DNA from: Candidatus Roizmanbacteria bacterium RIFCSPHIGHO2_02_FULL_37_13b
Lineage (GTDB): Bacteria; Patescibacteriota; Microgenomatia; UBA1406; HO2-37-13b
NCBI GenBank assembly: GCA_001789395.1
Contig: MFZK01000004.1
Coordinates: 17,145 to 55,943 of the forward strand
Length of the DNA: 38,799 nt
Direction: 5' to 3'
The translations under genes were made by a program, and so were the position numbers. Below are positions 5,470 to 34,187 of the stretch, in pieces. How positions within the stretch are numbered: the stretch's first letter is position 1; each line of letters begins with the position of its first letter. The notes beneath the pieces are model-generated. The model had not been told where the DNA came from, ran no database searches, and saw nothing but the letters and a program-made list of their open reading frames with translations.

Positions 5470-5473
5470 ATTG

Positions 5474-6529: not shown

Positions 6530-6611
6530 ATTTTATTCTTCTTTTGTCTTTTTATAATTGATAATACCGACCCGAAGGGGTGTGTATATATCAATATAGG
6601 CAATTTATCAG

Positions 6612-11757: not shown

Positions 11758-11759
11758 AG

Positions 11760-11816
11760 TTTGATTGTTCTATTATTTAATTGTTACTACAATGTAGTAA
11801 TCGAGTAATTGAGCAA
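11760..11816 (-). repeat. 8-bp degenerate repeat between purE and purC
   Basis: Read on the minus strand, octamers AATTGCTC, AATTACTC, GATTACTA and CATTGTAG lead into AACAATTA, AATAATAG, AACAATCA. The last three match the octamer family inside recJ (AACAATAG, AACAATTA). An ACTACA-ATG-TAGT dyad sits in the middle. Confidence 0.7.
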
Positions 11817-12329
11817 TTATTTTTCATTCAAATATTTCTCATACCCCAATTCATTCAGTTTCTCATTTTTTTCTAATACTTTTTGGGTTTGTTTTACTAA
11901 ATATTCTTTTAATTTATGTGACAAGTCTGTATCGGTAATTGCTAAGACTTTTAAGGCTAGAAGTCCTGCATTTTTAGCGGCATCTATACCAACTGTTGCA
12001 ACCGGCACTCCGGGTGGCATTTGAACTGTCGAAAGTAATGAATCCAATCCTTTTAAAGATTTACTGCTGATAGGGACCCCAATCACAGGGCCGGGGAAAT
12101 GTGCAGCGCAAACTCCGGCGAGGTGTGCTGCACCGCCTGCTCCGGCAATTATTACTTTTATTCCTTTATCATTTGCTGCTTTTAAATATTCTACTGTCTG
12201 ATCGGGTGTACGATGGGCTGAAAGAACATTTATTTCATAACCAATAACAAATTCATCCAGAATTTCTGCTGCAGATCTCATCACTTCCAAGTCCGAATCA
12301 GAACCCAATAGTATCGCAACTTTTGTCAT
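11817..12329 (-). CDS. purE: PurE carboxyaminoimidazole ribonucleotide mutase (class I type)
   Basis: 170 aa. The N-terminal GSDSD, the SAHRTP loop and GAGGAAHLAGVCAAHFPGPVIGVP mark the bacterial class I enzyme, which rearranges N5-CAIR to CAIR. Class I PurE normally works with PurK, which makes N5-CAIR from AIR, ATP and bicarbonate. No purK is in this operon or window. Either PurK is elsewhere, or this PurE uses CO2 and AIR directly like class II enzymes. It overlaps purB by four bases. Confidence 0.95.
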   Translation of the reverse strand: MTKVAILLGSDSDLEVMRSAAEILDEFVIGYEINVLSAHRTPDQTVEYLKAANDKGIKVIIAGAGGAAHLAGVCAAHFPGPVIGVPISSKSLKGLDSLLSTVQMPPGVPVATVGIDAAKNAGLLALKVLAITDTDLSHKLKEYLVKQTQKVLEKNEKLNELGYEKYLNEK

Positions 12330-13729
12330 AATAGTTTAATTTTATCAACTAATTTTTTCGCTCTCTCTGGTGCATCTCCGATATGATTGGAGATGTCTAA
12401 TAATTTTTTTATTTTTTCTATCTTTAAATATTTTAATAAAATATCATTTGTCGTCAATAGTTTATCCATTGGATTTTGAACTCCTTTTTGAATTTGTTCC
12501 CAAGCTTGTAGGGAAATAGTTCTTAATAACTCATGTATCTCTTGTCGATTCGCCCCAGCTTTAACTGCTTCGATAATGATAGATTCGGTAGCTGCAAACG
12601 GACCATATTGTTTCAAATTAAATTTAATTCGTTCCTTATTAATCACCAAACCTTGGACAATTTTTATCGCAGTTTCCAAAATTTCATCAACAGCCAAAAA
12701 TCCTTCAGGAATAAAAATTCGTTTATTTGCCGAGTCATCAAGTGTTCGCTCTAGATGCGATAGTGAAGCGTTTTCGAGTGCTACTGATGGTAATGAATTG
12801 ATATATCGTGCTAGCGAGCAAATTTTTTCACTATTTAAAGGATTTTTTTTGAAAGGCATGGCGCTGGAGCCGACTTGTTTTTTACCAAAAGGTTCACTCC
12901 ATTCTCCAATTGCCGGGGTTTGTAAAATTCGTAAATCTGCAGCAAACTTAGCTATTGATGAAGCAATGCTGGCTAAGATGACCATCACTAAATAATCAAA
13001 TTTTCTAGGGTAGACTTGGCCACTGATTAAGACAGAGTCGATACAAAGAGATTTCATGATTTCTTTTTCAAATTCGCCCACCTCGGAGGAGTCCATCCGG
13101 CCACCTCCGAGGAGGGCCAAATAACTGGCTCCGGTGCCAACGGCACCCTTAAAGCCTTTTGCTTTAATTGTTTTTTTGACAAATTGGAGAATTTCATAGT
13201 CAGTTTGTAAGTCTTGGGCGTAAAGACTTAAACGATAGCCGACCGTCGTCGGCTCTGCCGGCTGCAGATGAGTATAACCTAAGCAGGTGAAATCGATGTT
13301 ATCTTCTATTTGTGCCGCAAAAATTTGCAGCAGATTTAATAGTTTATTTTCTATAATTGTTATAGCTTCTTGGATCCGCATCATGTCTGCATTATCGACA
13401 ATATCCATACTGGTTGCGCCAAGATGGATTTTTCCGCCACCCTTGCTGGCTTTTTCAGCAAATTCAGCTATTGCAGCGACGACATCGTGTTTAGTATCCT
13501 GTTCAATTTCCAAGATTCTATTGATGTCTAAATTATTTTCGTTTTCTTTCAAATCATCTAGCTCTTCCTTAGAGACTAAACCATGTTTGTGTTCACTTTC
13601 AGCAAGTGCAACCCATATTTTTCGCCAGAGTTTATACTTATTTTCTTCACTGAAGATATAACGCATTTTCTCACTGCCATAGCGCCAAGTAAGTGGTGAT
13701 AGATATGTTTTAAAATCAAATGTTTTCAT
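12326..13729 (-). CDS. purB: Adenylosuccinate lyase
   Basis: 467 aa, fumarase/aspartase superfamily. The signature loop SSAMPFKKNPLNSE carries the catalytic Ser, and GATSMDIVDNADMMR and TCLGYTHLQPAEPTT are the other two conserved blocks, the latter with the His. It releases fumarate from SAICAR to give AICAR, and also from adenylosuccinate to give AMP, so it serves both the operon pathway and the AMP branch. It starts two bases after purP1 and overlaps purE by four, indicating tight translational coupling. Confidence 0.95.
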   Translation of the reverse strand: MKTFDFKTYLSPLTWRYGSEKMRYIFSEENKYKLWRKIWVALAESEHKHGLVSKEELDDLKENENNLDINRILEIEQDTKHDVVAAIAEFAEKASKGGGKIHLGATSMDIVDNADMMRIQEAITIIENKLLNLLQIFAAQIEDNIDFTCLGYTHLQPAEPTTVGYRLSLYAQDLQTDYEILQFVKKTIKAKGFKGAVGTGASYLALLGGGRMDSSEVGEFEKEIMKSLCIDSVLISGQVYPRKFDYLVMVILASIASSIAKFAADLRILQTPAIGEWSEPFGKKQVGSSAMPFKKNPLNSEKICSLARYINSLPSVALENASLSHLERTLDDSANKRIFIPEGFLAVDEILETAIKIVQGLVINKERIKFNLKQYGPFAATESIIIEAVKAGANRQEIHELLRTISLQAWEQIQKGVQNPMDKLLTTNDILLKYLKIEKIKKLLDISNHIGDAPERAKKLVDKIKLL

Positions 13730-13731
13730 AC

Positions 13732-14850
13732 TTAAGTAACGATTTTATCCAAACAATTTTCTTTAATTGCCTGCTTAATCTCAACAGCAATTCTTCGGCC
13801 GACGGTCATTGATTTGCCAAATAAATATGAGCCATATGGCGTCGAGGAAATTCCGGGGGAACCAGGAACTCGTGGTGAGACATCAACAACGATAATATCT
13901 TTTTTTGGCGGACCCGGAATAATTATTGATTGCAATGCAAAAGGGCCAACGACTCCGGGCGCCATAATTTTTTTTGATGCTTTCACGAATTTTTCGCGGA
14001 TTTCAAAAACTTTTTCCAGCATTGATTCCAAGACTGTGACAGCGATATGTCCGGCCTCCTCATAGGTAACCGGCATAATTTGTGACAGATTTTGATATAC
14101 ATAAGGAGGCAATTTAGAGAATCCTTCTAGATTCGTTTGGCGTCGGGTATCAGTTCCCAACAACTCCAATCTACCATTCAAAGGAGAATAAAAGAAATTG
14201 AAATTAACTTGAACCCCAAGAACAAATTCCTCAATAACAGATTGTTTTAGTTGGTTCTCTGTAAAGATTTTTTTCTTCAACATTCGTTCTACCTGATTTT
14301 GATAGTCAGAATAATCTCGACTCACAAAAAATGCTCTTTCAAAGCCCCGTTCTTTTTCCAGAACCTTAACCAAACAGAGTCGATCAATATCTGCCGGTTT
14401 TTTGAAGATTTTAGGATATCTAATTCCGGCTTCCTCAAGTAAATCATACTGGCTATATTTTGTGCCTCGTTCTTCAAGGCGTAACATGAAACGATTACCA
14501 AACATCGGTACCTCGAAATTTTTTTCAATCGCGTTATAGTCATTTAAATAGACCTCGAATGATCGGTGGGGTATAAAAATAGCATGCTGAGAAATCATTT
14601 TCTCAATGGTACGGACTAGTAGGATATCTTTAAAATTATCTAATGCTATTATTTCATCGACGCAACCTAAATTTCCATCACTTTTATAATATTTTTCATA
14701 AGGCGTGCCGCGGCCTTTTTGAGTTATCACCAAAGTCTTAAATCCTTCATCTTTTGCTCCTCGGCAGACATCCAGAGCACTGTGACTGCCAAGGACAGCA
14801 ATAGTAGTATTTAATTGGTCAAAATCTTTTAGTTGGGCAGTGATGTTCAT
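13732..14850 (-). CDS. purP: PurP-family ATP-grasp protein, FAICAR synthetase (copy 1)
   Basis: 372 aa. The archaeal PurP layout is visible: the TIAVLGSHSALDVCRGAKDEGF start (substrate-binding domain), IFIPHRSFEVYL, an ATP-grasp region with SVIEEFVLGVQVNFNFFYSP, a conserved ELLGTDTRRQTNLEG, and the C-terminal VVDVSPRVPGSPG with metal ligands. PurP forms FAICAR from AICAR, ATP and formate without folate, replacing the transformylase half of PurH. It is found mostly in archaea, so its presence inside a bacterial pur operon is notable. It is followed by purB after two bases. Which of the two copies makes FAICAR cannot be told from reading. Confidence 0.9.
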   Translation of the reverse strand: MNITAQLKDFDQLNTTIAVLGSHSALDVCRGAKDEGFKTLVITQKGRGTPYEKYYKSDGNLGCVDEIIALDNFKDILLVRTIEKMISQHAIFIPHRSFEVYLNDYNAIEKNFEVPMFGNRFMLRLEERGTKYSQYDLLEEAGIRYPKIFKKPADIDRLCLVKVLEKERGFERAFFVSRDYSDYQNQVERMLKKKIFTENQLKQSVIEEFVLGVQVNFNFFYSPLNGRLELLGTDTRRQTNLEGFSKLPPYVYQNLSQIMPVTYEEAGHIAVTVLESMLEKVFEIREKFVKASKKIMAPGVVGPFALQSIIIPGPPKKDIIVVDVSPRVPGSPGISSTPYGSYLFGKSMTVGRRIAVEIKQAIKENCLDKIVT

Positions 14851-14855
14851 AAATC

Positions 14856-14890
14856 ATGTAACTCGAAACATGTAACGCGAAACCTGAAAC
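14856..14890 (+). repeat. 7-bp tandem repeat, ATGAAAC family, between the purP genes
   Basis: Heptamers ATGTAAC, TCGAAAC, ATGTAAC, GCGAAAC, CTGAAAC in register, same family as in gltX. They are followed directly by a palindromic element. Confidence 0.85.
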
Positions 14891-14893
14891 ATT

Positions 14894-14969
14894 TGTCATT
14901 CCCGCGCAGGCGGGAATCTATAGAATTGTTATAATTTATATAGATTCCGGGTCTTCGCCCGGAATGACA
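14894..14969. repeat. Composite palindromic (REP/MITE-like) element
   Basis: Outer ends TGTCATTCC and GGAATGACA are inverted copies. Inside are the hairpins CCCGC-gcag-GCGGG and TTCCGGG-tcttcg-CCCGGAA, plus ATCTATA/TATAGAT. A relative with the same TTTGTCATTCCCG and ATCTATAGAATT strings is upstream of era. Found between two operon genes, it would fold in the purP mRNA. Confidence 0.8.
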
Positions 14970-14974
14970 TGTTG

Positions 14975-15988
14975 TTAATCCAATATTAATTCTAACTTAT
15001 TTTCGCTGATTGCTTGTTTTATTTCCATCGCGATTCTTCTCCCGGTTGAAACCGGTTTTTCATGATGAAATATTGAATAAGGTGATGTATCAGTGAAAAG
15101 ATTAGTTCCGGCAACGATTCTTGCCGATACTTCAATTGCATAAAAATTCATATCCGGAGTAATAATTGTTTCCAGACAAAATGGTCCAAAAAGACCTTTA
15201 TCACTGATCAATTTTTTTGAAGATGCAACCAGACGTTCTCCCATGTCATAAGCTTCAGGTAGCATTGACTCACGAAGTACAAGCGGGGAATTACCGACGA
15301 CGACATAGGAGGGATCAATATCAATTTCTTGCTGCATAATTGCAGGAATCCGACCTAAGCCATCAGCATTGGTTTCATATCGTCGGTCCATGCTCAAGAT
15401 TTCCAAACTATTTGTTAAAGCTGAATAAAAATAATGGATATATAAAGTCACTCCCAAGATATATTTTTGAATAATATATTTATTGGACTTAAATGTCTTT
15501 ATTTTATTTTCAAATTCTTGCTTTTCTTTAGCCAAGAAATATCCAGCGCCACCGGCCGCTCCAAATGATTTAACAATCACGGGAAATTGTGCTTTTTCAA
15601 TTGAATCGTATTGAGGTGGCATATTGATTTTTGACTCTAGTAGCCACTTTTTCTGTTTGTCTCTGTCTTGTTCCCAGTCAAGCACTGCTTTATTACCAAA
15701 GTAGGCAAGAGTCATATTTTTATTTTTCTCAACTCCAAGATAGGCAACAAATGAACCATGGGGGATTATGATGACATTTTTATCTTTAAGATCTTTTTCA
15801 ACTGTTGGAAAATCGGCAAATGTAGGAATTGTTTTTACTTCATCGATAAAAGAGAACCTCTTATAAAATTTTTCCCGATCAGGAGTCGTAATTAAAAGAG
15901 TATTGAAATTTTCTGCTTTTGCACCATGTAGAATCTGGAGAGCCGAATGACTACCCAAAGTTGCAATCGTATATTTTTGATAGTCCAT
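14975..15988 (-). CDS. PurP-family ATP-grasp protein (copy 2)
   Basis: 337 aa, clearly homologous to the adjacent 372-aa PurP but diverged. Shared blocks: ATLGSHSALQILHGAKAENF, IIIPHGSFVAYLG, YILGVTLYIHYFYS, ILSMDRRYETNADG, and the C-terminal IEVSARIVAGTNL. It is shorter, mainly between the N-terminal and ATP-grasp parts. Archaea often carry two PurP paralogs, one of them of unclear function. Here it could be a second FAICAR synthetase or have drifted to another step, possibly compensating for the missing IMP cyclohydrolase (speculative). Its own extended -10 promoter lies five bases before the ATG, so it can be expressed apart from the upstream operon. Confidence 0.85.
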   Translation of the reverse strand: MDYQKYTIATLGSHSALQILHGAKAENFNTLLITTPDREKFYKRFSFIDEVKTIPTFADFPTVEKDLKDKNVIIIPHGSFVAYLGVEKNKNMTLAYFGNKAVLDWEQDRDKQKKWLLESKINMPPQYDSIEKAQFPVIVKSFGAAGGAGYFLAKEKQEFENKIKTFKSNKYIIQKYILGVTLYIHYFYSALTNSLEILSMDRRYETNADGLGRIPAIMQQEIDIDPSYVVVGNSPLVLRESMLPEAYDMGERLVASSKKLISDKGLFGPFCLETIITPDMNFYAIEVSARIVAGTNLFTDTSPYSIFHHEKPVSTGRRIAMEIKQAISENKLELILD

Positions 15989-15993
15989 GAATA

Positions 15994-15999
15994 ATTATA
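15994..15999 (-). promoter_or_regulatory. Internal leaderless promoter of the second purP
   Basis: Minus strand TGC-TATAAT (extended -10) five bases before the ATG at 15988. It sits in the 130-base gap after purQ, the largest gap in the operon; nothing else is evident in that gap. Confidence 0.6.
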
Positions 16000-16118
16000 G
16001 CAAATTCTGTTAGAATAATCCACTATTAATTATGGCGTAAATTAAAATAGTTATCAACTGAAATAAATTTGAAATAAGAAGCTGTAAGTAAATTATTAAG
16101 ATGTGATTTATTTGATTA

Positions 16119-16889
16119 TTACTTAAAATAATCAACACCATTCTTGAATATCTGCAGTCCTGGACCGTGTTCGGGGAGGTCTTTACCATTTCGTAAATAC
16201 CGTTCCTTAAGTCGTGTCCAATGAGGAAGTTGAGTGAAAAAAAGTGCCCGGTCGGGGTGAGGCATCAGGCCAAATATCCGGCCTGTTTTATCGGTGATAC
16301 CGGCGATATCAGAAAGAGCGCCATTTGGATTGTAGGCAAGTCCATATTCTTTATACATCTCACCCTTAATATATTTGACGGCGACTTGATTATTTTTTTT
16401 CAGATCACTTAATTCCTTATCCGGTAAATAATATTTACCTTCTCCATGGGCAACTGGAAGTGATAGATTTTTAATTTTTTTAAGCCATGGGCTTTTGTTT
16501 ACTACTTTTAAATCGATCCATCGGTTGATGTAACGAGCTGATTCATTAAATGTCAATGCACCGGGAAGTAATCCACAATTTGTTAAAATCTGAAAGCCAT
16601 TGCAGATGCCAATGACTAATTTGTCGCTCTCAATAAAACTATTTAATTGATCCGTTAAATGATTTTTGATTTTGTTTGCATATGCTTTGCCGCTTCCGGT
16701 ATGGTCGCCAAAGGCAAAACCACCGGGTATGCCCAGGATCTGATAATCATCAAGTTTTTTTATTTTGTCGATAATATCATTAATATGAACTATCTCAGCA
16801 TCACCACCGGCGAGTTGAAAGCCATAAGCGGTTTCTTCTTCACAGTTTAATCCGTAACCCGATAGGACTATAATTTTTGGTTTGATCAT
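16119..16889 (-). CDS. purQ: Phosphoribosylformylglycinamidine synthase, glutaminase subunit
   Basis: 256 aa class I glutamine amidotransferase. The nucleophile Cys is in IGICNGFQIL, the oxyanion region in GIPGGFAFGDHTGSG, and the His/Glu pair near MPHPDRALF. It supplies ammonia to PurL for FGAR to FGAM conversion. It is somewhat longer than Bacillus PurQ (~227 aa), mainly because of an insertion in the middle (KVVNKSPWLKKIKNLS region). It starts four bases after purSL. Confidence 0.95.
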   Translation of the reverse strand: MIKPKIIVLSGYGLNCEEETAYGFQLAGGDAEIVHINDIIDKIKKLDDYQILGIPGGFAFGDHTGSGKAYANKIKNHLTDQLNSFIESDKLVIGICNGFQILTNCGLLPGALTFNESARYINRWIDLKVVNKSPWLKKIKNLSLPVAHGEGKYYLPDKELSDLKKNNQVAVKYIKGEMYKEYGLAYNPNGALSDIAGITDKTGRIFGLMPHPDRALFFTQLPHWTRLKERYLRNGKDLPEHGPGLQIFKNGVDYFK

Positions 16890-16893
16890 AATT

Positions 16894-19749
16894 TTAATAA
16901 TCTTTCAATGATGACTTATATGTTTTTAATGCTTTATCGGTTTTTAAATTGACTACCGTTTTGTCGGATAAGTCCCTGATTTTTATAATCTGATTCTCAG
17001 TGACTCGGCCTAAAGATAGGATATTATTACTAAACAGATTTTCAAATGCCTCCTTTTTTTCCGGTGCGATACTGATAAGTATTCTACTCGGGAATTCCGA
17101 CATGAGAATTTTTTTATCAACTTTTATATCAATGCCCAGGATTCCGGCTATAGCGCTTTTACAGACGGCAATTGCCAGGCCACCGCGATGGATGTTGATT
17201 GCTGATACGACATAATTATTTTGGATTGCAGTAAACACAGATCGGTACAGTGCCAATTGTTTTACCGGATCGAAATTATCATGATTTTCTCCTAAAAGAT
17301 ACACCAGATCCCCCGGATTTTTAAAGTCGATCGTGACGGTTTTTCTTACATCGTCAATCACCCCGATAGTTGAAATAAGTAGTGTCGGTGGTACCGAGAT
17401 TTTTACCGGTTTGCCGGTTTTATCAAAACCATTGAAATCATTAAACATACTGTCTTTTCCTGATATGAACGGTGTCCCAAATGCTATAGCCACATCATAG
17501 CACGCCCTAGCAGCCTGTTTTAGCTGATATAGCCTATTCGGATCGTCACCGCTTGACCAGCAAAAATTGTCCAATATAGCCAGATAATCAGGATTGGCTC
17601 CGACTGCAACAGCAGAGGCAATTGCAGAATCAATTGTATAGGTGGCCATATAATAAGTATCAATATCAGATAATTCCGGATTGATTCCATAAGATAATAC
17701 AACACCTTTTTGACTGTCATATAGAGGTTTAATTACGGTAGCAGAAGCATTGACCCGTCCCTTTCCATGAAGAGGGGGCAGTACAGCATTGCTTTGTACT
17801 GTATGATCAAATTGTTGTGATATAAATTCATAAGAGGTGATATTTAATCGCATCAACATTTGTTCTAAAACTGAAGTAAGGCCACTCGAGACCTTTGACC
17901 TTTGACTTTTGACTTTTGACTTTATTTTTACGCTTTTTTGCTTTTTTTTCGGTCGGCCATTATGAAAAAAATTCATATCAATATCCATAACTCGTTGACC
18001 ATTATGTTCAACAATGCATTTGCCTGAATTGGTAAATTCACCTATTACAGTTGCTTCGACACCTCTTCGCTTCATTAAACTATTAAAAGTCAACCATTTT
18101 CCTTGGGGTATAGCCAAAGTCATTCTTTCTTGCGATTCAGATACCCAAATTTGCCAAGCATGTAGTCCATGATATTTGAGAGGGACTTTATCAAGATATA
18201 CATGGCATCCACCGGTCAGTTTAGCCATCTCACCAACAGATGACGATAGTCCACCGGCGCCATTATCTGTTATCGCATGATAAAGATTTTTATCCCTGGC
18301 TTCTTTTATTATGGCGTCAGATAGCTTCTTTTGAGTAATTGGATCACCGATCTGCACTGATGATGATTGACTTTTGACATTTAATTCCTCTGATGAAAAA
18401 GTGGCGCCATGAATTCCGTCAATTCCCACCCGACCACCCACCATTACAATATAGTCTCCTGGAAGCGCTTTTTTTTCAATGGAATTTCGTTGATTAATTT
18501 TTTTAGGAATCAAACCTACTGTGCCAACAAATACTAATGGCTTTCCTCGATATCTTTCATCAAAATAAACAAATCCTAATGGTGTTGGTATTCCTGATGA
18601 ATTACCACCGACATTAACTCCTTCGACTACTCCTTCAAGAATTCTTTTAGCAGGTAATAGTTTCTCGGTTTTATTTTTATTGCGATAATAAATTGTTTGA
18701 TCAGTCGGGTCAGCAAAACAAAAACCATAAACATTGGCTATGGGTTTGGCTCCAAGTCCAAATCCTAACGTATCTCGATTGACGCCGACTATGCCGGTTA
18801 TTGCTCCACCAAAGGGGTCAAGTGCCGATGGAGAATTATGAGTTTCGACCTTATGAGTGATTAAATAATTTTCATCAAATTCAATAGCACCCGAGTTGTC
18901 AACAAAGACCGAGGCGCAGAATGGTTTATTGATTTTTAAAGTTGCTCCCTTAATATACTTTTTGAAAATTCCCTCCTTAATTTCATCCAGTGGATCATTA
19001 AAGATTGTATGTTGACAATGTTCAGACCAAGTCTGAGCAATTGATTCAAGTTCAACATCAGTTGGATTTCTTTTTAACTTTCTAAAATAATCGCGGATAG
19101 CCAGCATCTCTTTTAAATCTAAAGATAAAGGACCACGTCTTTTATTATCACCCTCTTCAATTCCTTCTTTTCCTATTCTTTCCAGTTCTTTTTTTGTGAC
19201 TTCAAGATAAACTTCTTTAACCAGTGTTTTTTTTACAATCGCTACTTTGGGAACCATCCGGGATAGACAGCGATCTTTTTTTATATCTTCAGCCGATTTT
19301 ACGACCACTCGTTGAATTAGTGGATTGTAAAGACTATCAGTAATTTTATTTATATCTTCAGCAGTTAGTTTTCCGGAAAAAAACAAAACCTGTGAAGAAT
19401 AAATATTCTCTCCTGATAAGAATGGCCTTTGGAAAAAATCTTCTAGCGTTTCTTTGGCAGTAGCGCCAACATTATCAGTCACCCCGGGTAGAAGACCGAT
19501 TTCAATACAGAAATCAAAGTCAGAGTCGATGGGTAAACTATTAATGGAATTTTTTTCTAAAATTGGATTAGTTAAAATATTGGCGGCTTTTTCGATTTGT
19601 TCGTTATTTAATATTGAATCGACAAGATATGAGTCGACAATAGTTATCTGTTTGATTTTTCCTTTTAATCCCAGAATTTCAAAATATTTTTTCTTGATAT
19701 CCGCTCGGGTATCTTTGATTTTGTAGGTAATATCAATTCGATTTATCAT
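16894..19749 (-). CDS. purL: Phosphoribosylformylglycinamidine synthase, PurS-PurL fusion
   Basis: 951 aa. Bacillus-type PurL is about 740 aa and PurS about 85 aa. Here about 200 extra N-terminal residues (RIDITYKIKDTRADIKK to KEVYLEVTK) look like PurS-type ferredoxin-like modules fused in front. The catalytic core has TWSEHCQHTIF, KVETHNSPSALDPFGGA, NVGGNSSGIPTPLGF, GGRVGIDGIHGATFSS and GTPFISGKDSM. It makes FGAM from FGAR with ATP and PurQ-derived ammonia. A Lys/Ser-rich linker (about residues 608-620) is encoded by a heptamer array and sits between the two PurM-like halves. It overlaps purD by 17 bases. Confidence 0.93.
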   Translation of the reverse strand: MINRIDITYKIKDTRADIKKKYFEILGLKGKIKQITIVDSYLVDSILNNEQIEKAANILTNPILEKNSINSLPIDSDFDFCIEIGLLPGVTDNVGATAKETLEDFFQRPFLSGENIYSSQVLFFSGKLTAEDINKITDSLYNPLIQRVVVKSAEDIKKDRCLSRMVPKVAIVKKTLVKEVYLEVTKKELERIGKEGIEEGDNKRRGPLSLDLKEMLAIRDYFRKLKRNPTDVELESIAQTWSEHCQHTIFNDPLDEIKEGIFKKYIKGATLKINKPFCASVFVDNSGAIEFDENYLITHKVETHNSPSALDPFGGAITGIVGVNRDTLGFGLGAKPIANVYGFCFADPTDQTIYYRNKNKTEKLLPAKRILEGVVEGVNVGGNSSGIPTPLGFVYFDERYRGKPLVFVGTVGLIPKKINQRNSIEKKALPGDYIVMVGGRVGIDGIHGATFSSEELNVKSQSSSVQIGDPITQKKLSDAIIKEARDKNLYHAITDNGAGGLSSSVGEMAKLTGGCHVYLDKVPLKYHGLHAWQIWVSESQERMTLAIPQGKWLTFNSLMKRRGVEATVIGEFTNSGKCIVEHNGQRVMDIDMNFFHNGRPKKKQKSVKIKSKVKSQRSKVSSGLTSVLEQMLMRLNITSYEFISQQFDHTVQSNAVLPPLHGKGRVNASATVIKPLYDSQKGVVLSYGINPELSDIDTYYMATYTIDSAIASAVAVGANPDYLAILDNFCWSSGDDPNRLYQLKQAARACYDVAIAFGTPFISGKDSMFNDFNGFDKTGKPVKISVPPTLLISTIGVIDDVRKTVTIDFKNPGDLVYLLGENHDNFDPVKQLALYRSVFTAIQNNYVVSAINIHRGGLAIAVCKSAIAGILGIDIKVDKKILMSEFPSRILISIAPEKKEAFENLFSNNILSLGRVTENQIIKIRDLSDKTVVNLKTDKALKTYKSSLKDY
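17891..17925 (+). repeat. 7-bp tandem repeat in purL
   Basis: ACCTTTG, ACCTTTG, ACTTTTG, ACTTTTG, ACTTTAT in register on the plus strand. On the coding strand this is a CAAAAGT/CAAAGGT array encoding the linker KSKVKSQRSKVSS. Confidence 0.8.
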
Positions 19750-21049
19750 ATTTCAATGCTTGCCAACCAATATCATGTCGATAATGCATACCGGGAAAAT
19801 ATATACTTTTTTTGTTAAATGGATATTGTAGAACATGATTATAAATATCATCACACGCCTTTTGAATATTAGTAGAGTAGGACGTAATTCCAAGAACTCG
19901 TCCTCCCGAAGTTAATATATTATTATTTTCGCGTTTAGTTCCAGCATGGAAAATAGTTACATTAGATTTATTGATATTATTAAGACCATTTATTGTTTGG
20001 CCGGTTTTATACGATCCTGGATATCCAGGTGCTGCAATTACAACACATACAGAGGCTCCTGGTTTTGTTTTTACCAAATCACTTTTAAGATTCCCGTTAA
20101 TACAAGCCATCGAGAGTTCATAAAGGTCAGAGTCTAAAAGCAGCATTAAAGGCTCTGTCTCCGGATCACCGAAGCGGACATTATATTCCAAAACCTTTGG
20201 TCCGTTTCTTGTCATCATAAGTCCTGCATAAAGTACACCTTTATAAATAATTTTTTCTTGACGGAGGCCTTGTATTGTAGGTTCAAGAATTGTTTTTTGG
20301 ATGACTTTAAGGTCTTGACTTGTTATAAAAGGAACCGGTGCATAGGCTCCCATACCACCGGTGTTTGGTCCTTTATCATTATCAAAAATACGTTTATGGT
20401 CTTGAGAGGGGACAAGAGGTATGACAGTTTTTCCGTCGGTAAAAGCAATGATTGATACTTCCGGGCCTTCAATTCGGTCTTGTATGATCACTTTATTTCC
20501 TGCCGTACCAAATATTTTTTTATTCATGATGTCGTCAATAGCATCAAATGCATGTCTTTCAGACTCGGGTAAGATAACTCCTTTTCCGGCAGCTAAACCA
20601 TTGGCTTTTATAACACTTTTTTTTACTCCAATTTTCTTAAGTTTTTTTTTCGCTTCATCAGGATTCATAAACGTAAATGATCGGGGGTATGGAATGCCGT
20701 GCCGTTCCATAAAATCACAGGCAAATACTTTGCTACCTTCAAGTTGGGCGCCTTCTTTATTTGGACCAAATATTTTCAAACCCTCCTTTTCAAATTCGTC
20801 GACAATACCGTTTACAAGTGGAATTTCCGGTCCAACAAACGTTAGGTCGATTCTCTTCTCTTTTGCAAAGATGACAAGTTTATCGTTATCAGTTACATCA
20901 ATTGTTACATTATCACCAATATCTCCAGTTCCGCCATTGCCGGGAGCAAAATATATTTTCTCAACAAAAGATGATTGAGCGAATTTCCACCCCAGAGCAT
21001 GTTCTCGTCCTCCGGAACCGATTATCAGAACTGTTTTTTTTAATGACAT
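19733..21049 (-). CDS. purD: Phosphoribosylamine-glycine ligase (GAR synthetase)
   Basis: 438 aa ATP-grasp ligase joining phosphoribosylamine and glycine. Motifs: N-terminal VLIIGSGGREHALGWK, FAPGNGGTG, the ATP-binding KANGLAAGKGVI, GPNTGGMGAYAPVP, and the metal-binding EYNVRFGDPETEPLM. Length and domain order are typical for the stand-alone bacterial enzyme. It lies five bases after purN and overlaps the start of purSL. Confidence 0.96.
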   Translation of the reverse strand: MSLKKTVLIIGSGGREHALGWKFAQSSFVEKIYFAPGNGGTGDIGDNVTIDVTDNDKLVIFAKEKRIDLTFVGPEIPLVNGIVDEFEKEGLKIFGPNKEGAQLEGSKVFACDFMERHGIPYPRSFTFMNPDEAKKKLKKIGVKKSVIKANGLAAGKGVILPESERHAFDAIDDIMNKKIFGTAGNKVIIQDRIEGPEVSIIAFTDGKTVIPLVPSQDHKRIFDNDKGPNTGGMGAYAPVPFITSQDLKVIQKTILEPTIQGLRQEKIIYKGVLYAGLMMTRNGPKVLEYNVRFGDPETEPLMLLLDSDLYELSMACINGNLKSDLVKTKPGASVCVVIAAPGYPGSYKTGQTINGLNNINKSNVTIFHAGTKRENNNILTSGGRVLGITSYSTNIQKACDDIYNHVLQYPFNKKSIYFPGMHYRHDIGWQALKYDKSN

Positions 21050-21054
21050 AATTC

Positions 21055-21657
21055 TTATTTACAAAGTTTTTTTAATACGTTTATATATAATTCGTGTTCT
21101 TTGTGTTTAAGTCGACTGTACAGGCTGTCAACAGTATCGTTAGATTCTATCTTCATGAAAACTCGACCCAAAATTGGGCCAAAATCAAAATCATGCGATA
21201 AAAAATGGACTGTTGAACCGGCGTAAGATGCACCTGAATCTAAGAAATTTTGTATTGCTTTATCTGTAAATTTACCTCTATTCCATAAAGCCTTACTGCC
21301 ATCCGGATTTTTTACTCTACTGGACAATGAGTCGGGGATTAGTCCGGGATGAATATTTAGGATCTTATTTTCAAAACTATCAATAAATGAATCGGGAATT
21401 ATGAGTTTCCAGCCTGCCAAACAGATATAATCAACTTGATATTGTTTTTTAAGGATTGCTACCAAATCAGTATTCTTATCAACGATTTCATAAGGAATTT
21501 CATGTTTTCGTGCTCGCTCAAGTCCAAGCGCATCGGACGAATCAGAAAGAACCACCACAATCTTAGCTTTAAGTTCTCCTTTTTCTATCGCATTAATAAT
21601 CGCCTGTAAATTCGTACCTGTTCCGCCAGTTGATATGAGAACGGCAAGTCTTTTCAT
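21055..21657 (-). CDS. purN: Phosphoribosylglycinamide formyltransferase
   Basis: 200 aa. It transfers a formyl group from 10-formyl-tetrahydrofolate to GAR. The start MKRLAVLISTGGTGTNLQAI holds the phosphate-binding loop. LNIHPGLIPD carries the catalytic Asn and His, and GSTVHFLSHDFDFGPIL the conserved Asp. It implies a folate one-carbon supply, whereas PurP downstream uses free formate. It follows purF after a 46-base gap that contains a heptamer repeat overlapping the purF stop. Confidence 0.95.
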   Translation of the reverse strand: MKRLAVLISTGGTGTNLQAIINAIEKGELKAKIVVVLSDSSDALGLERARKHEIPYEIVDKNTDLVAILKKQYQVDYICLAGWKLIIPDSFIDSFENKILNIHPGLIPDSLSSRVKNPDGSKALWNRGKFTDKAIQNFLDSGASYAGSTVHFLSHDFDFGPILGRVFMKIESNDTVDSLYSRLKHKEHELYINVLKKLCK

Positions 21658-21679: not shown

Positions 21680-21707
21680 GTTTCAAGCTTCAGGTTTCAT
21701 GCTTCAT
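21680..21707 (-). repeat. 7-bp tandem repeat, ATGAAAC family, at the purF 3' end
   Basis: Minus-strand heptamers ATGAAGC, ATGAAAC, CTGAAGC, TTGAAAC in register. The first copy contains the purF TGA stop. Confidence 0.85.
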
Positions 21708-23224
21708 GTTGTATATCTCGGATATTCCGAGCCGTCTTTTAAAATAGGGTAAAGTCCGGTGATGCACCCGGCGCAACCACCATTAGCTAAAAAAATTTCT
21801 TTGGGATTTTCTGGCTTAATCAATTTTGATGAGGCTTTTCTGGATTGAATAAATCCTTCAGGGCTAATATAGTTGACAGATGTTGCACCGATAGCTCGCG
21901 CGATTTTTTTGGGATTGCTGTCGAATTGAGCAGCGATTAATTCGTCTCTAGTTCTCATTGATACGCCCAAATGGCATGGATACGCCACTGGTGGAAAGCC
22001 AACCATCCAATGTACCTCTTTAGCACCAAGTTTAAAAATCGCTTGAGTTAATTTTTTGGAGACATTGCCCCGGACAATTGAATCATCTCCGATCACAACA
22101 ATTGCATCTTTCCATACTTGTGGATCTGGTACTAGAGAAAGTTTACCTAATACTTTTTGAGATATAGTTTCAATTTTGTCATCTCTCATGAAAAGACGTT
22201 GCAAACCGTAAGGATCAAAATGATCCCGGAGAATTACCTGAGCGTATGGTAGACGGAGTTCATATGCGTATCCAGTCGCCAAGGCAACTCCTGAGTCTGG
22301 TACTCCAACAACAAAAGAAGCATTGGTTATAGGCATTTCCTTTGCTAAAGCCTCACCACAGCGTTTTCTAAAAAGAGAAAAAGATATCCATTGAGCGGGG
22401 TAGTCAAGATCATTATCATTTTCTCGTGTTGGTGCTTCAGAATTCGGTCTGGAAAAGTATGCCCATTCGAAATCACAGAAGTTGCCTGGTTTTGCCGTGC
22501 CGTTTCTAATTGTAGATAAACCGTTTTCATCAACTTTAACGATTTCACCCCGTTTAAGCCGTCTGATCGCTTTGACATTAATTTTACTAAGAGAGTGAGT
22601 TTCAGAGGCAAATACCCAACCACCATTTAATCTGCCCATAATTAAAGGTCTTATACCCCAACGGTCGCGAAGCGCATATAGAGAATTGTTAACACCAATT
22701 ATCAGACTAAATGCTCCGGTGACTTTGTCAACCGCGCTACAAATTTTTTCATCCCAATTATCTCCCTGACTTTGTGCAAGTAAATTGGTAAATAGATAAG
22801 TATCACTGGCGCCTTCTGGAATTGAAATATCTTTGATGAAATTTTTCATCTTATCGCAAGCTGGGAATTCCCCGTTATGAATTACAGAAACAATATTACC
22901 ATTTGGCGCTTTTGCTTGAATAGGTTGAAGATTGTGATCAATATAGTCACCTGAGGTGCCATAACGCAGATGAACCATAGTCCAAAAACTGGGATGAGTG
23001 AATTTTTCAATAACATCTTTTGTAAATGCATCTTTTAAAAGGCCAGTCCCTGTGAAACGTTTTAATCCATTTTCTGTTTGCATCGCTATCCCAGCGCCGT
23101 GTTGGCCTCGATGTTGTAATCCCGCTGCAGCAAGAAGTGCCAGCGGGAGATTAAGCGTTGGTTTAACAGTATGGATTCCTAAAATACCACATTTGTCCTC
23201 TATTGAATCTTTTAATTGGTTCAT
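21704..23224 (-). CDS. purF: Amidophosphoribosyltransferase
   Basis: 506 aa, first committed enzyme of the pathway (PRPP plus glutamine to phosphoribosylamine). An 11-residue propeptide precedes the N-terminal nucleophile Cys (EDK-CGILGIH). The glutaminase domain has LQHRGQHGAGIA and YGTSGD-like blocks, and the C-terminal PRTase domain has the PRPP loop VIGDDSIVRGNVS. Four cysteines match the [4Fe-4S] ligands of the Bacillus enzyme (NFCDFEWAYF, VAYPCHLG, GGCAGCITG), so the mature enzyme probably carries an oxygen-sensitive cluster. It is the first gene of the operon, directly behind a leader with an intrinsic terminator. Confidence 0.96.
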   Translation of the reverse strand: MNQLKDSIEDKCGILGIHTVKPTLNLPLALLAAAGLQHRGQHGAGIAMQTENGLKRFTGTGLLKDAFTKDVIEKFTHPSFWTMVHLRYGTSGDYIDHNLQPIQAKAPNGNIVSVIHNGEFPACDKMKNFIKDISIPEGASDTYLFTNLLAQSQGDNWDEKICSAVDKVTGAFSLIIGVNNSLYALRDRWGIRPLIMGRLNGGWVFASETHSLSKINVKAIRRLKRGEIVKVDENGLSTIRNGTAKPGNFCDFEWAYFSRPNSEAPTRENDNDLDYPAQWISFSLFRKRCGEALAKEMPITNASFVVGVPDSGVALATGYAYELRLPYAQVILRDHFDPYGLQRLFMRDDKIETISQKVLGKLSLVPDPQVWKDAIVVIGDDSIVRGNVSKKLTQAIFKLGAKEVHWMVGFPPVAYPCHLGVSMRTRDELIAAQFDSNPKKIARAIGATSVNYISPEGFIQSRKASSKLIKPENPKEIFLANGGCAGCITGLYPILKDGSEYPRYTT

Positions 23225-23313
23225 AAAATAAAAAATCCCGCAAAATAATTTGCGGGACTAATATCAAATGCCTGTTTGACTACTTTAGTCACTTTGTTGA
23301 CTTAAATTTCTAA
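23225..23313 (-). promoter_or_regulatory. purF leader with mutually exclusive hairpins and a terminator (attenuator candidate)
   Basis: On the minus strand the ~89-base leader holds hairpin A (AGTCA-acaaag-TGACT) and hairpin B (GACTA-aag-TAGTC). They share bases 23287-23290, so only one can form. Next is a 9-bp perfect stem TCCCGCAAA/TTTGCGGGA (23236-23257) followed by six T. The T-run ends five bases before the purF ATG. Full expression requires read-through or initiation at this site. It does not show the conserved purine-riboswitch core. Confidence 0.65.
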
Positions 23314-23319
23314 TAATAA

Positions 23320-23348
23320 ACTATAGCAAATTATTATTTATCTTACAA
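23320..23348 (-). promoter_or_regulatory. Promoter of the purine operon
   Basis: Minus strand TTGTAA, 17-bp spacer, TATAGT. It is the only good promoter upstream of purF. Confidence 0.65.
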
Positions 23349-27587: not shown

Positions 27588-27700
27588 GGAAGCATAAAGA
27601 GAGGTGACGAGGGCACTGGCCCAACGACTCACCCAGCAACCGAGTCTTTCAAAAAAAAGAATACGGTGCTAAACCCAGCCCATATGGGACGGATGTGTTC
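27588..27700 (+). ncRNA. SAM riboswitch (SAM-I clan)
   Basis: Conserved SAM-I strings occur in order: AAAGAGAGGTGACGAGGG, CACTGGCCC, CAGCAACC, and CGGTGCTAAACCC. P2 forms by GGTGA (27603-27607) with TCACC (27629-27633). P3 is ACCG/CGGT, closed around an A8 loop. P4 is the perfect CCCATATGGG (27679-27688). P1 is short and imperfect (AGCAT region with ATGTGTTC). Segment 27599-27605 (GAGAGGT) is complementary to the terminator 5' arm (ACCTCTC). This suggests an antiterminator that forms without SAM, and termination when SAM holds P1/P2 closed. Confidence 0.88.
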
Positions 27701-27760: not shown

Positions 27761-29101
27761 ATGAACAATATTGCTCAAATTGAACAAATGGAGGGAGAAA
27801 GATTAAACGACTGGTATGAACCCGAAAGTTTTCAATCACTAAAGTTACGACGCGATTGTGTTGCAAATTTAGGGACAATCTCGCGAGTAATTGTTGTAGG
27901 TTCTTCCGGTGCAGGTAAATCAATTATTCAAAGGGCTGTGATTGATGCGTCAGAAAAGGATAGTTTTCTTGCTGGAAGAATTTGTATACCGCGACGAGTG
28001 GTTACTCGTGATCCTCGTCCTGATGATGACAATATGCTAACTTATTGTTCGAGCGAAGAACTGGAGTTACGAACGAGAAAGGGAGAATTTGGTTTATATG
28101 GTGTAAAACTTATGGAGAATGGTAGAGAAGAATTATTTGGTTTAGAAAAGCCAGAAGATGGAGCGTTTCCAATCTTCTTTGCAAATAATGCAGTAATTAG
28201 AAATAGAGAAAGTATTGGGCCTCCATCGGTTTTTGATGGCGCTTTAATTGTTGGTATTTATGCTCCCGATAGTGTTCGAGAAGAGAGACTGCGCAGACGA
28301 TCTCCACATTTATTTACGGAGCGACCCGATGAGATAGCATTTAGATTGTCTGATGTTGAAAGCTCCAGAATTATAATTCCTCAGGCTCATGTAATTGTCA
28401 AGAATTTTGGAAGATATGAATCTAGAGTAGTACAAGATTTTATAAATTTTTTAAAGCTTGTTGAATTAAGTAAAGGAGAGCAATTGTTGACCGAGTTAGC
28501 TGGGGTAAATACAAAAAACAGATATATTATTTTAAGACACGGAGAAAGTGAAGCTAATAAGCAAGGAGTAATTGTCAGTTCTTTGGATAATGGATTGAAT
28601 GATTATGGGTGTACTTCTGAGGGAATTGAAGATGTTTCACGTGCAGCTCGTTATGCCCAAGAGAAAGGAATACACGTTGATCACATCTTTACTTCTCCAT
28701 TTCTAAGATGCACGGATTCAGCTCGTGTATTTGCAGAAGTAAGTAGTTTTATAGGAGAAATATCAGTAAGAGATGAATTACGTGAACGATATTTTGGCAT
28801 ATTTGAAGGAACGAGTAGTTGTAATTACCAGATTGTTTATAATACCGATCAACAAAATAGACTTGGGAGTAAAGAACTATTTGGGGCTGAAACGCCAACA
28901 GATGTATTAGATAGAGTTACACGATTAATTACTGAACTTGAAGAAACAAATGAGGGAAAAACATTTTTACTCGTAACACATGCTGATGTCGGAGAAATTG
29001 CACAGGCTGGTTTTAAAGGTCTACCTCCGCAAACGCATAGACTATTTATGCCAAAAATTAGAAATGGTACACTGAGAGAAATAGCAACGATGGGGACATA
29101 A
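27761..29101 (+). CDS. Bifunctional fusion: P-loop GMK/PhnN-like kinase plus histidine phosphatase, SAM-regulated
   Basis: 446 aa. The N-terminal ~230 residues are a P-loop NMP-kinase-type domain. They contain Walker A GSSGAGKS (~47-54), VVTRDPRPDDDN as in guanylate kinase or ribose-1,5-bisphosphate kinase PhnN, and a lid-like RERLRRRSP. The C-terminal ~190 residues are a phosphoglycerate-mutase-like histidine phosphatase. Its catalytic core is intact: RHGESEAN, SPFLRC, RERYFGIFEG and VTHAD. No membrane segment. A kinase and an opposing phosphatase in one chain is the PFK-2/FBPase-2 architecture, but the kinase belongs to another family. It is the only gene behind the SAM riboswitch, since era follows convergently. 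Substrate unknown; a nucleotide or (phospho)ribosyl compound is my best guess. Confidence 0.8.
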   Translation: MNNIAQIEQMEGERLNDWYEPESFQSLKLRRDCVANLGTISRVIVVGSSGAGKSIIQRAVIDASEKDSFLAGRICIPRRVVTRDPRPDDDNMLTYCSSEELELRTRKGEFGLYGVKLMENGREELFGLEKPEDGAFPIFFANNAVIRNRESIGPPSVFDGALIVGIYAPDSVREERLRRRSPHLFTERPDEIAFRLSDVESSRIIIPQAHVIVKNFGRYESRVVQDFINFLKLVELSKGEQLLTELAGVNTKNRYIILRHGESEANKQGVIVSSLDNGLNDYGCTSEGIEDVSRAARYAQEKGIHVDHIFTSPFLRCTDSARVFAEVSSFIGEISVRDELRERYFGIFEGTSSCNYQIVYNTDQQNRLGSKELFGAETPTDVLDRVTRLITELEETNEGKTFLLVTHADVGEIAQAGFKGLPPQTHRLFMPKIRNGTLREIATMGT

Positions 29102-31706: not shown

Positions 31707-32583
31707 CCACAAAACGGTTGATGATCTTTAGAAAAGGATTGGTATATCAATCCCTGGTTTTTTAGTCATTTCTACCCCTGTTTTACCATTAAGACGACGG
31801 AATCTACCGCGACAATCTGTATACTTAGTTAACCTCCGTTTCAAAACATATCCGTTAATCCAAAGCTTTGTGTGTTTTATCGTTTGAAAAGATCGAAGAG
31901 CAAAAAATCTTGATTCAAAATGACCATTTAAGCCTTCAATAAGATTAGTAGTAATTGGTGCTTGATGAATATTTCGATAAGCTGTTAACTCTTGTTTGTA
32001 TTTTTCGATATTAGTTAGCACTGATAAACAAACGGGATCTTGTTGGTAATCCCGATACAAACACCAAAGCCAGTGATTTAAATTCTGATCTGATATTTTG
32101 TTCCTGAGTACTGATTCAATTCTTTTCATAAAGGGTTTGTAAGTATTATCTGATCTTATCTTTAAGTTACGTCTGATATTTTCTTTAAAATACTTGCCGT
32201 CAAACAAAAACACATGAGAAAATCGATTACAGAAGTTAAAGGTAAATTGATTGTTATTCGGTAATTTCCTTAATTCTTGATGGCATATTTTCCATGCTAA
32301 TGATTTACTAATGCGATACTTTCTAGCTATTTTCCGGAATGATAATCCATCCAGATGATCGTTAAGTAATACTTTATTATCCGTAAAGCATGGATTAAAA
32401 GAAAAATATCTTTGACAGTATTTATAAAACAAGCGTATTACTTTTTTTCGATAGCCATAACAGATAACATAATTTGTGGTTTTACAGTTGGGGCATTTGT
32501 ACTTTTTCATACGCCCCATTTTGTATCACTTTATGTTATGACTACAAGTAGAAGTATCGTTTTCACCAACCGAATTGTGGACG
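31704..32583 (-). mobile_element. Decayed insertion sequence
   Basis: 21-bp imperfect terminal inverted repeats, 18 of 21 identical: CGTCCACAAAACGGTTGATGA at the left end and CGTCCACAATTCGGTTGGTGA as the complement of the right end. They enclose one transposase gene. I see no direct target-site duplication. Confidence 0.75.
31728..32519 (-). CDS. Transposase with internal deletion, probably inactive
   Basis: 263 aa. An N-terminal zinc-ribbon-like segment starts CPNCKTTNYVICYG; its second half has only one Cys (KYCQRYF). A helix-turn-helix follows (GLSFRKIARKYRISKSLAWK), then the first catalytic Asp of a DDE domain in LFDGKYF. The text jumps almost directly to a C-terminal block, TTNLIEGLNGHFESRFFALR, which carries the likely Glu. 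The region expected to hold the second Asp (~100 residues) seems deleted in frame. The C-terminus resembles IS256/MULE-like enzymes. The family is uncertain. The gene fills the IS and would need help in trans to move. Confidence 0.75.
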   Translation of the reverse strand: MGRMKKYKCPNCKTTNYVICYGYRKKVIRLFYKYCQRYFSFNPCFTDNKVLLNDHLDGLSFRKIARKYRISKSLAWKICHQELRKLPNNNQFTFNFCNRFSHVFLFDGKYFKENIRRNLKIRSDNTYKPFMKRIESVLRNKISDQNLNHWLWCLYRDYQQDPVCLSVLTNIEKYKQELTAYRNIHQAPITTNLIEGLNGHFESRFFALRSFQTIKHTKLWINGYVLKRRLTKYTDCRGRFRRLNGKTGVEMTKKPGIDIPILF

Positions 32584-32588
32584 GTACC

Positions 32589-32678
32589 CAGCTTGAGGTA
32601 ATACGTCGCCGAAGATCCCGTGAGTAGCAACGAACGGGAACGAGATAGAAGCGTAACAAAAACGACAGTTACGTATTA
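32589..32678 (+). other. Structured element R, after the IS
   Basis: It is paralogous to element L. A long-range stem TAATACGT (32599-32606) with ACGTATTA (32671-32678) encloses CCCGT to ACGGG and CGTAAC to GTTACG helices. It includes the shared GAAGCGT block. No ORF runs through it. The rest of the gap to 32770 shows nothing I can name. Confidence 0.5.
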
Positions 32679-32773
32679 AAAATAGAGCGATTTTAGCCTC
32701 AGAATTTTATATCAGTCCATATCAGATAGAAATTGGATTCGAATCTCTTATTAAATTTCTCTGTGTGTGTATC

Positions 32774-32802
32774 TTGACTTTGGTATGGCTTTAATATATG
32801 AT
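32774..32802 (+). promoter_or_regulatory. padR operon promoter
   Basis: TTGACT, 17-bp spacer, TATGAT. The -10 covers the track start codon 32798, so translation must begin downstream, at 32813. Confidence 0.65.
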
Positions 32803-32827
32803 TATTTCATATATGTCTATTACATAT
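32794..32827 (+). promoter_or_regulatory. Two overlapping palindromic operators
   Basis: ATATATGA-ttatt-TCATATAT (32794-32814) and ATATGT-ctatt-ACATAT (32811-32827), both with 5-bp spacers. They cover the -10 and start site, and they contain the ATGT/ACAT half-sites typical of PadR. Autoregulation by the downstream PadR is the natural reading. Confidence 0.65.
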
Positions 32828-33193
32828 AATGATTCTTTGCAACCAAAAGTTTTCGGTACGGTTCAACGTTTTATAGAACCCTGCATTCTCCTTCTTCTTT
32901 CAAGAGGCACGTCTCACGGCTATGGTTTACTGGAAGATTTGGAAAAGCACTGCGGAGAAAAAGTTGATATTGGTAACTTATATAGAACCTTACGAAAAAT
33001 GGAAACAAATGGTTGGGTAAAATCTGAGTGGGGTGTAAACAAAACTGGTCGTGATAGAAGAGTCTATACCATTACAAAAAGCGGACTCGCTTTTTTGGAA
33101 AGAGCAGCCGTCTCGCTTACTCAAACTGACAGTCTTATTCACAGGTTTTTTGAGGGATACAAGAAAACTTTTCAGAAGGGAACATCTTTATGA
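32813..33193 (+). CDS. PadR-family transcriptional regulator
   Basis: About 126 aa from ATG 32813 (MSITYNDSLQPKVF). A winged helix-turn-helix is visible: FIEPCILLLLSRGTSHGYGLLEDLEKHCG, then DIGNLYRTLRKMETNGWVKSEW with the PadR recognition helix (LYRTLRKLExxGWV), and a wing at GRDRRVYTITKSGLAFLE. A short C-terminal helix serves dimerisation. The start chosen here is leaderless, since the -10 lies at 32797-32802. It overlaps the DsrE-like gene by four bases and heads an operon ending with the Met-rich membrane protein. It probably responds to a small ligand or a metal/redox cue and represses itself. Confidence 0.9.
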   Translation: MSITYNDSLQPKVFGTVQRFIEPCILLLLSRGTSHGYGLLEDLEKHCGEKVDIGNLYRTLRKMETNGWVKSEWGVNKTGRDRRVYTITKSGLAFLERAAVSLTQTDSLIHRFFEGYKKTFQKGTSL

Positions 33194-33513
33194 AACTTTC
33201 TATTATTTTATCGTCCAATAACGCAGAAAAAAACTGGAATGCTTTGAGGTTTGGTAATCTAGCTCTTAACAATAGTGACAACGTTAGTATCTTTCTTATC
33301 GGTGAAGGTGTGGAATATCTTAAATTTGGGAATGAAAAGTTTGACATTCAAAAACAGGTTGATGCATTTCTTGAGTCAGGCAAGGGAGAAATCCTAGCTT
33401 GTAAAACGTGTATGGTATTACGACACCAAAAAGGTGACAAAACCTGTCCTGTAAGCGGAATGAAAGATCTGTATAACCTAATAAAAGAAAGCGATAAAGT
33501 GGTTACTTTTTAA
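33190..33513 (+). CDS. DsrE/DsrF-like small protein
   Basis: 107 aa, DsrE/YchN-like alpha/beta fold. It starts MKLSIILSSNNAEKNWNALRFG, has the DNVSIFLIGEGVEYL strand-helix, and a cysteine cluster ACKTCMVLRHQKGDKTCPVSGM. Proteins of this family carry persulfides or take part in sulfur relay. The Cys at the ACKTC position matches the reactive site of DsrE-like domains. It is translationally coupled to padR. Together with a Met-rich partner this points to sulfur, redox or metal stress, but no partner for a full sulfur relay is present. Confidence 0.8.
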   Translation: MKLSIILSSNNAEKNWNALRFGNLALNNSDNVSIFLIGEGVEYLKFGNEKFDIQKQVDAFLESGKGEILACKTCMVLRHQKGDKTCPVSGMKDLYNLIKESDKVVTF

Positions 33514-33517
33514 GCTT

Positions 33518-34187
33518 ATGAAAAAGATACTGTTTAGTCTAAGTATATTACTTATTTTAGTTTCTGTTTTTACTTCTTCTGTTTTAGCTCAAGGGATAAT
33601 GAACCGGGATAATACTTCCAGTGTAACTCCTTCCTCAGTGTCTTCAACTGCACAGGATGAAGACAAAGGAAAACAAATATGAGAACAACTACAAATCAAA
33701 ACAAGTAGATTGTGAGAACTTAAAAGATGACGATTATGAAGTTTTAGGCGAATACTTTATGGGACAATCTATCGGTAACACTGAAAGACATGCTGTTATG
33801 AACCAAATGATGCAGAATATGATGGGTCAAAACAGTGAAGAGCAAATGCATATAGTTCTTGGTAAAAGATCAAGCGATTGTAATGCAAATGCTTCGTTTC
33901 CTCAAGGATATGGTTTACCAATGATGGGATGGATGATGGGAGGAGGTGGAAATCCTATGATGGGCTATGCTGGTTGGGGCGGTTTTGGTTTCGGGTGGAT
34001 TTTTATGATTATTTTTTGGATTCTTATTATTTTAGGGGTTGTTGCTTTAGTCCGTTACTTAAGAGGAACCAAACAAAACAGCATATATAAAGACAAGATA
34101 TCTTTGGATATTTTGAAAGAACGATATGCTAAAGGAGAAATTAATAAAAAGGAATTTGAAGACAAGAAAAAAGACTTGAGTTCATAA
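33518..34187 (+). pseudogene. Secreted/membrane Met-rich SHOCT protein split by a frameshift
   Basis: A 54-aa ORF (33518-33682) begins with a signal peptide (MKKILFSLSILLILVSVF to SSVLA) and ends DEDKGKQI-stop. The second ORF (33657-34187) continues the same type of protein in another frame: YENNYKSKQVDCENLKDDDYEVLGEYFMGQ, a Met-rich middle (MMGWMMGGGGNPMM), one transmembrane helix (WIFMIIFWILIILGVVALV) and a SHOCT tail (LDILKERYAKGEINKKEFEDKK). One extra base near 33670-33677 would join them into ~222 aa, as in relatives with GK-Q-I-Y before the DC motif. The Met-rich stretch and paired Cys suggest copper or other metal binding. Sequencing error, frameshift mutation and programmed slippage are all possible. 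Confidence 0.7.

Follow-up and report, generated by a model that had tools for sequence, protein, structure and literature searches.

The purine operon of Candidatus Roizmanbacteria bacterium RIFCSPHIGHO2_02_FULL_37_13b is headed by purF, and the short leader before this gene ends in an intrinsic terminator that adjoins its start codon. This attenuator anatomy is real, recurrent and associated with purF among Microgenomates. We give about even chances to the reading that it attenuates transcription of the purine operon in the manner of E. coli pyrBI, with regulation itself deduced.

In the window (the whole 38,799-nucleotide stretch analyzed), purF (21704–23224, minus strand) encodes amidophosphoribosyltransferase with an N-terminal propeptide before Cys12, a residue invariant in the alignment. 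Its product matches TIGR01134 at E 1.7e-70, under the curated cut-off, and the residues invariant among close relatives are present. The gene lacks a Shine–Dalgarno site and opens a ten-gene operon, purF-purN-purD-purL-purQ-purP-purP-purB-purE-purC, whose remaining members occupy 10795–21657 on the minus strand. The two adjacent PurP family genes inside this bacterial operon (DUF1246/DUF1297; 13732–14850 and 14975–15988, minus strand) are of archaeal type. The genome, about 93% complete, contains no TIGR01743 match for a PurR of the B. subtilis type.

Two elements of the original prediction, a promoter and a strong terminator whose T-run ends five bases before the purF ATG, are borne out. The predicted sigma-70-like promoter (23320–23348, minus strand) combines a −35 element TTGTAA (23348–23343), a 17-nt spacer and an extended −10 element TGC-TATAGT (23325–23320), a 9/12 match; with 13 matches of this class found versus 9.3 in shuffles, such matches are not rarer than chance. 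A 57-nt leader (23260–23316, minus strand) separates it from the terminator hairpin AGUCCCGCAAA-UUAU-UUUGCGGGAUU (23234–23259, minus strand; −15.9 kcal/mol), which has 11 stem pairs, five of them G-C, and the loop UUAU. The U-tract UUUUUUAUUUU (23225–23235, minus strand) consists of UUUUUU at 23235–23230, an A and UUUU, followed directly by the purF ATG at 23224–23222. Leader and terminator together fold far better than dinucleotide shuffles (z = −5.4, 0 of 200 as good). The hairpin sequence is present in a single copy in the 1.16-Mb genome, and a reading of it as a DNA operator palindrome was set aside.

Terminators in this position recur before purF across the class. Under one rule applied to all sets, a gene was positive when a terminator ended 0–15 nt before its in-frame start. 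The purF set covered 130 genomes of the class, from Roizmanbacteria, Gottesmanbacteria and other Microgenomates, and 17 of them were positive, versus 1 of 395 genes other than purF in 400 kb of sequence from seven relatives (Fisher 3e-10) and 5 of 1063 genes of the window's own genome (Fisher 3e-13). Start-proximal terminators are thus about 30–60 fold enriched at purF over other genes; the single positive among the 395 reads as carA. Other purF genes have the terminator 20–75 nt before the start or within the ORF, and about 80% of those in the class are without such a terminator; many of the latter that were inspected are leaderless or operon-internal. The window's own genus is represented by one genome in the comparison, and G003 and G005, the members of its family that are closest among those having a near purF, have no terminator at this gene. 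A scan of the genome collection with the window's PurF alone gave no match; named Roizmanbacteria and Gottesmanbacteria relatives came from the alignment.

The relatives' purF leaders are about 30–115 nt long, and many have a promoter 40–120 nt before the hairpin that is comparable to or stronger than that of the window, several reading TTGACA-17-TATAAT. Nearly all keep the U-tract. Hairpins and leaders differ in sequence between families, so what recurs is a position rather than a sequence. Hairpin conservation among relatives had been named as the test that could refute the original prediction, and its outcome is divided: the terminator and its position recur, and the small leader hairpins do not. 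The proposed covariation analysis gave no support: leader sequences of different families are too dissimilar to compare, and within genus g16 the two helices persist with hardly any variation and no compensatory change.

The two small, mutually exclusive hairpins described in the original prediction are present in the predicted fold (about 23307–23282 and 23280–23263, minus strand), and an alternative stem, TGACTA-AAG-TAGTCA, would exclude the first. Both are weak, however, and coexist in the minimum-energy fold, and the leader without its terminator folds only slightly better than shuffles (z = −1.9, 7 of 200 dinucleotide shuffles as good). They may act as RNA polymerase pause hairpins. As a switch they were rejected: neither pairs with the terminator, and their sequence is not conserved between families. 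The best duplex between the window leader and the 5′ arm of the terminator reaches −3.6 kcal/mol versus −4.6 for shuffled leaders, and in 16 of the 18 purF leaders searched such duplexes are no stronger than those of shuffles. In the remaining two (L003 and L172) the leader pairs with this arm to some extent, and antiterminators are possible. The absence of a general antiterminator argues against a riboswitch or a trp-type switch and leaves either occlusion by a ribosome or an unregulated terminator. Of the attenuator-like leader with regulated read-through that had been proposed, the anatomy stands, recurring at purF far above background, and the hairpin switch does not.

The same genome provides positive controls. 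Across 1.07 Mb scanned, 162 terminator-like sites were found, 46 of them intergenic and 10 ending 9–23 nt before a start codon; besides purF, these start-proximal terminators precede a SAM riboswitch gene, a cysK-like gene and trpE. The presence of known attenuator types among the 10 sites indicates that this position is where the attenuators of this genome sit. The cysK-like gene (33044–34009, minus strand, contig C20; loci L045 and L077) has the leader peptide MIKGIYLTVNENCCCTSR, ending in NENCCCTSR* with three Cys codons, and trpE (5204–6574, minus strand, contig C19; locus L044) has MFKKKSNNFLWRASPFWEANYY with two Trp codons. Both show strong antiterminators (−17.4 and −15.0 kcal/mol, versus about −5 and −4 in shuffles) and are likely classical, ribosome-controlled amino-acid attenuators. 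At the edge of contig C19 (locus L044, about 1–90) a further site precedes a DAHP synthase-like gene whose leader peptide contains YWFYF and which is probably of the same kind; the names cysK, trpE and DAHP synthase are readings of the protein sequences rather than database results. Since what look like classical attenuators are found in this genome, ribosome–polymerase coupling probably operates in the organism.

Other leaders were recorded alongside these. A SAM riboswitch (RF00162, 48.7 bits; window 27591–27699, plus strand) has its own terminator just before gene 27761–29101, whose product joins nucleoside-kinase-like and histidine-phosphatase-like parts, an unusual S-box target. An AdoCbl-II riboswitch match (42.1 bits; L019:174–249, minus strand) lies near the purF contig of a relative. 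In the window's own genome, terminators 12–15 nt before rplC (ribosomal protein L3; contig C14, 49504–49520, plus strand) and argG (argininosuccinate synthase; contig C13, gene 31922–33541, minus strand) are further possible attenuators. Among 30 carA loci, the terminator ends about 10–28 nt before the start in six (L331, L337, L338, L344, L346 and L351), and in L346 a leader ORF (uORF) spans it and overlaps the carA start. Six further loci (L326, L327, L330, L332, L333 and L339) have a hairpin CTGTCC-GATG-GGACAG-TTTTTTT in the first codons (LSDGTVF), one of them as a shifted variant.

A ribosome can suppress terminators near or inside a translated ORF; in amino-acid attenuators more than 20 bp separate the leader ORF from the terminator, and the pyrBI terminator lies within its leader gene (PMC4824070). 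In 24 purF leaders, uORFs of at least 8 codons including the stop and starting with ATG were scored when they ended within a set limit before the hairpin, in it or beyond it. With a limit of 20 nt, taken from PMC4824070, 19 of the 24 leaders qualify versus 10.2 expected (P 2e-4), and with a stricter limit of 8 nt 15 qualify versus 9.0 (P 0.011). Allowing GTG and TTG starts gives P 0.003 at 20 nt and 0.05 at 8 nt. These values come from a test devised after the leaders had been seen, which relies on promoter predictions and on shuffles of single bases. The purF leader peptides contain no run of regulatory codons. The 24 leaders, with a mean composition of A 0.36, T 0.34 and purines 0.51, show no general purine-rich pause tract; the A-rich leaders of g16 and of the window (A 0.42) are exceptions with no statistical weight.

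The window leader contains no ATG uORF. A candidate leader ORF of 23 amino acids, MTKVVKQAFDISPANYFAGFFIL, begins at a GTG (23221–23292, minus strand), spans the terminator and ends in a TGA that overlaps the purF ATG (ATGA), an arrangement resembling L007 (TAATG) and the carA leader L346. A GTG uORF of this kind arises by chance in about 60–70% of shuffles if GTG and TTG are admitted as start codons, and analogy with relatives is what suggests that it may be a leader ORF.

Translation through the terminator can be read most directly in g16. In seven genomes of this genus the terminator lies within a purF-specific leader ORF: TTTCTCAG...CCCGCNCAGAGCGGG behind an ATG occurs in the seven purF leaders and nowhere else in 83 genomes of the order, and the leader ATGAGRAA...TTTCTCAG...CCCGCNCAGAGCGGGTTTTTTT is found only before purF, in 7 of the 83, one copy each. 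Two of the seven, L088 and L090, have a leader ORF that stands apart from purF, with a restart for purF about 130 nt further on. In the other five (L010, L013, L015, L089 and L092) the leader ORF runs in frame into purF, where the terminator encodes the segment ..TR(P/T/S)ERVFLK.. of the PurF propeptide. These five genes have no ATG, GTG or TTG between the terminator and Cys1, and indels there measure +9 or −9 nt, so the frame is kept; from the reading frames, purF in these five genomes is translated through the terminator. The N-terminal propeptide of PurF is self-removed in this enzyme family, and this would account for the gene accommodating a terminator without harm to the mature protein.

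On the favored, pyrBI-like reading, RNA polymerase would start about 85 nt upstream of purF and make a short leader. With no ribosome close behind, the hairpin at 23259–23234 would form and most transcripts would end just before purF. A ribosome started in the leader and following closely would cover or melt the hairpin, allowing read-through into purF and the rest of the operon; tight coupling over the leader is likewise required to avoid termination at pyrBI (PMC5021804). Such close following would be expected of a slowed polymerase, as for instance under a shortage of purine nucleotides. A leader ORF whose stop falls on the purF start codon would in addition bring a ribosome to this gene, which has no Shine–Dalgarno site of its own. 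We infer the regulated read-through, the ribosome as antiterminator, the purine signal and the use of the window's GTG uORF. Sensing of purines, perhaps as purine NTPs, is proposed by analogy; as the leaders are not purine-rich overall, the NTP-sensing step draws no support from sequence.

A leaky terminator outside ribosome control, which holds expression at a low basal level or yields to a protein antiterminator or elongation factor, is a somewhat unlikely but serious alternative. It would fit the conservation of position rather than leader sequence, the window's want of an ATG uORF and leaders free of purine-rich tracts. Neither the excess of uORFs reaching the terminator nor the g16 purF frames running through it would be expected, however, and the version with a protein factor is opposed by the relatives' leaders, in which no conserved protein-binding site is visible.

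Control of translation initiation, with the hairpin blocking or positioning the ribosome and termination secondary, is improbable. The hairpin stops 9 nt short of the AUG of a gene with no Shine–Dalgarno site, as this explanation would have it, but nearly all relatives retain the U-tract typical of terminators, and the g16 hairpin sits within the coding region, beyond the start codon.

That the hairpin is an ordinary or fortuitous terminator, or a stop for upstream or antisense transcription, is very unlikely. The upstream neighbor of purF is a divergent transketolase gene, and an antisense transcript of this gene could end at the hairpin; nor are terminator-like sites rare across the region (3 found versus 2.5 expected). 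Against this stands the enrichment at purF starts over other genes. With the upstream neighbor divergent and no gene on the purF strand for 3.5 kb upstream, the terminator can act only on purF's own transcript and is not an end-of-gene terminator.

Least probable of all is a switch between alternative RNA folds, in a riboswitch or an attenuator of the amino-acid type, for which the small upstream hairpins, one with an alternative partner, and the possible antiterminators of L003 and L172 could be cited, but which is disfavored by leaders that differ between families, by the want of a general antiterminator or regulatory codon run, and by Rfam, where no family reaches its gathering score in the window leader or the relatives' purF leaders.

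More broadly, it is conceivable, though we propose it tentatively, that Microgenomates control nucleotide synthesis by start-proximal terminators read through polymerase–ribosome coupling, with a purine counterpart of pyrBI on purF (where in one genus the terminator is written into the code for the propeptide) and a comparable layout on carA. In these tiny, uncultivated and probably host-dependent bacteria, terminators of unrelated sequence, placed in many genera on or within the beginning of the committed purine gene, point to coupled transcription–translation control over dedicated sensors.

Among known systems, riboswitches for purines, PRPP or ppGpp share conditional termination at purine genes. 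The purF leader differs in being too short and not conserved, with no aptamer seen and no Rfam match, in agreement with the original prediction that it resembles none of them. The best sub-threshold Rfam match, Trp_leader (E 0.19, 19 bits versus 41 required), was taken as chance. A literature search for attenuation of purF or in Patescibacteria found no paper, and one for ribosome-mediated attenuation of purine biosynthesis returned only an unrelated review; in the papers that could be searched, pyrBI-like control was not described for purines.

With the leader-peptide attenuators of trp, his and cys operons, the purF leader shares a promoter, a short leader, a terminator just before the first gene and, on the favored reading, involvement of the ribosome. 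It differs from them in having no regulatory codon run and no antiterminator, and in a uORF stop that mostly lies less than 20 nt from the hairpin or beyond it.

The nearest counterpart is the pyrL leader of E. coli pyrBI. Unlike pyrBI, the operon here makes purines rather than pyrimidines, the leader ORFs span about 9–40 codons, mostly 12–25, versus 44 in pyrL, and in g16 the leader ORF is joined in frame to the N-terminal propeptide of the enzyme. The leaders show no U-rich or purine-rich pause tract with any consistency, and because a nucleotide-sensitive pause tract was looked for and did not appear, membership in the pyrBI type is not claimed. Like pyrBI, the purF leader heads a nucleotide-synthesis operon and has an intrinsic terminator between the promoter and the first gene and no general antiterminator. 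A terminator inside or against a leader ORF, and a leader ORF that ends at or near the start of the structural gene, would be further likenesses, suggested by the uORFs of the class and the fused ORFs of g16; in the window they would depend on a GTG ORF that may be due to chance.
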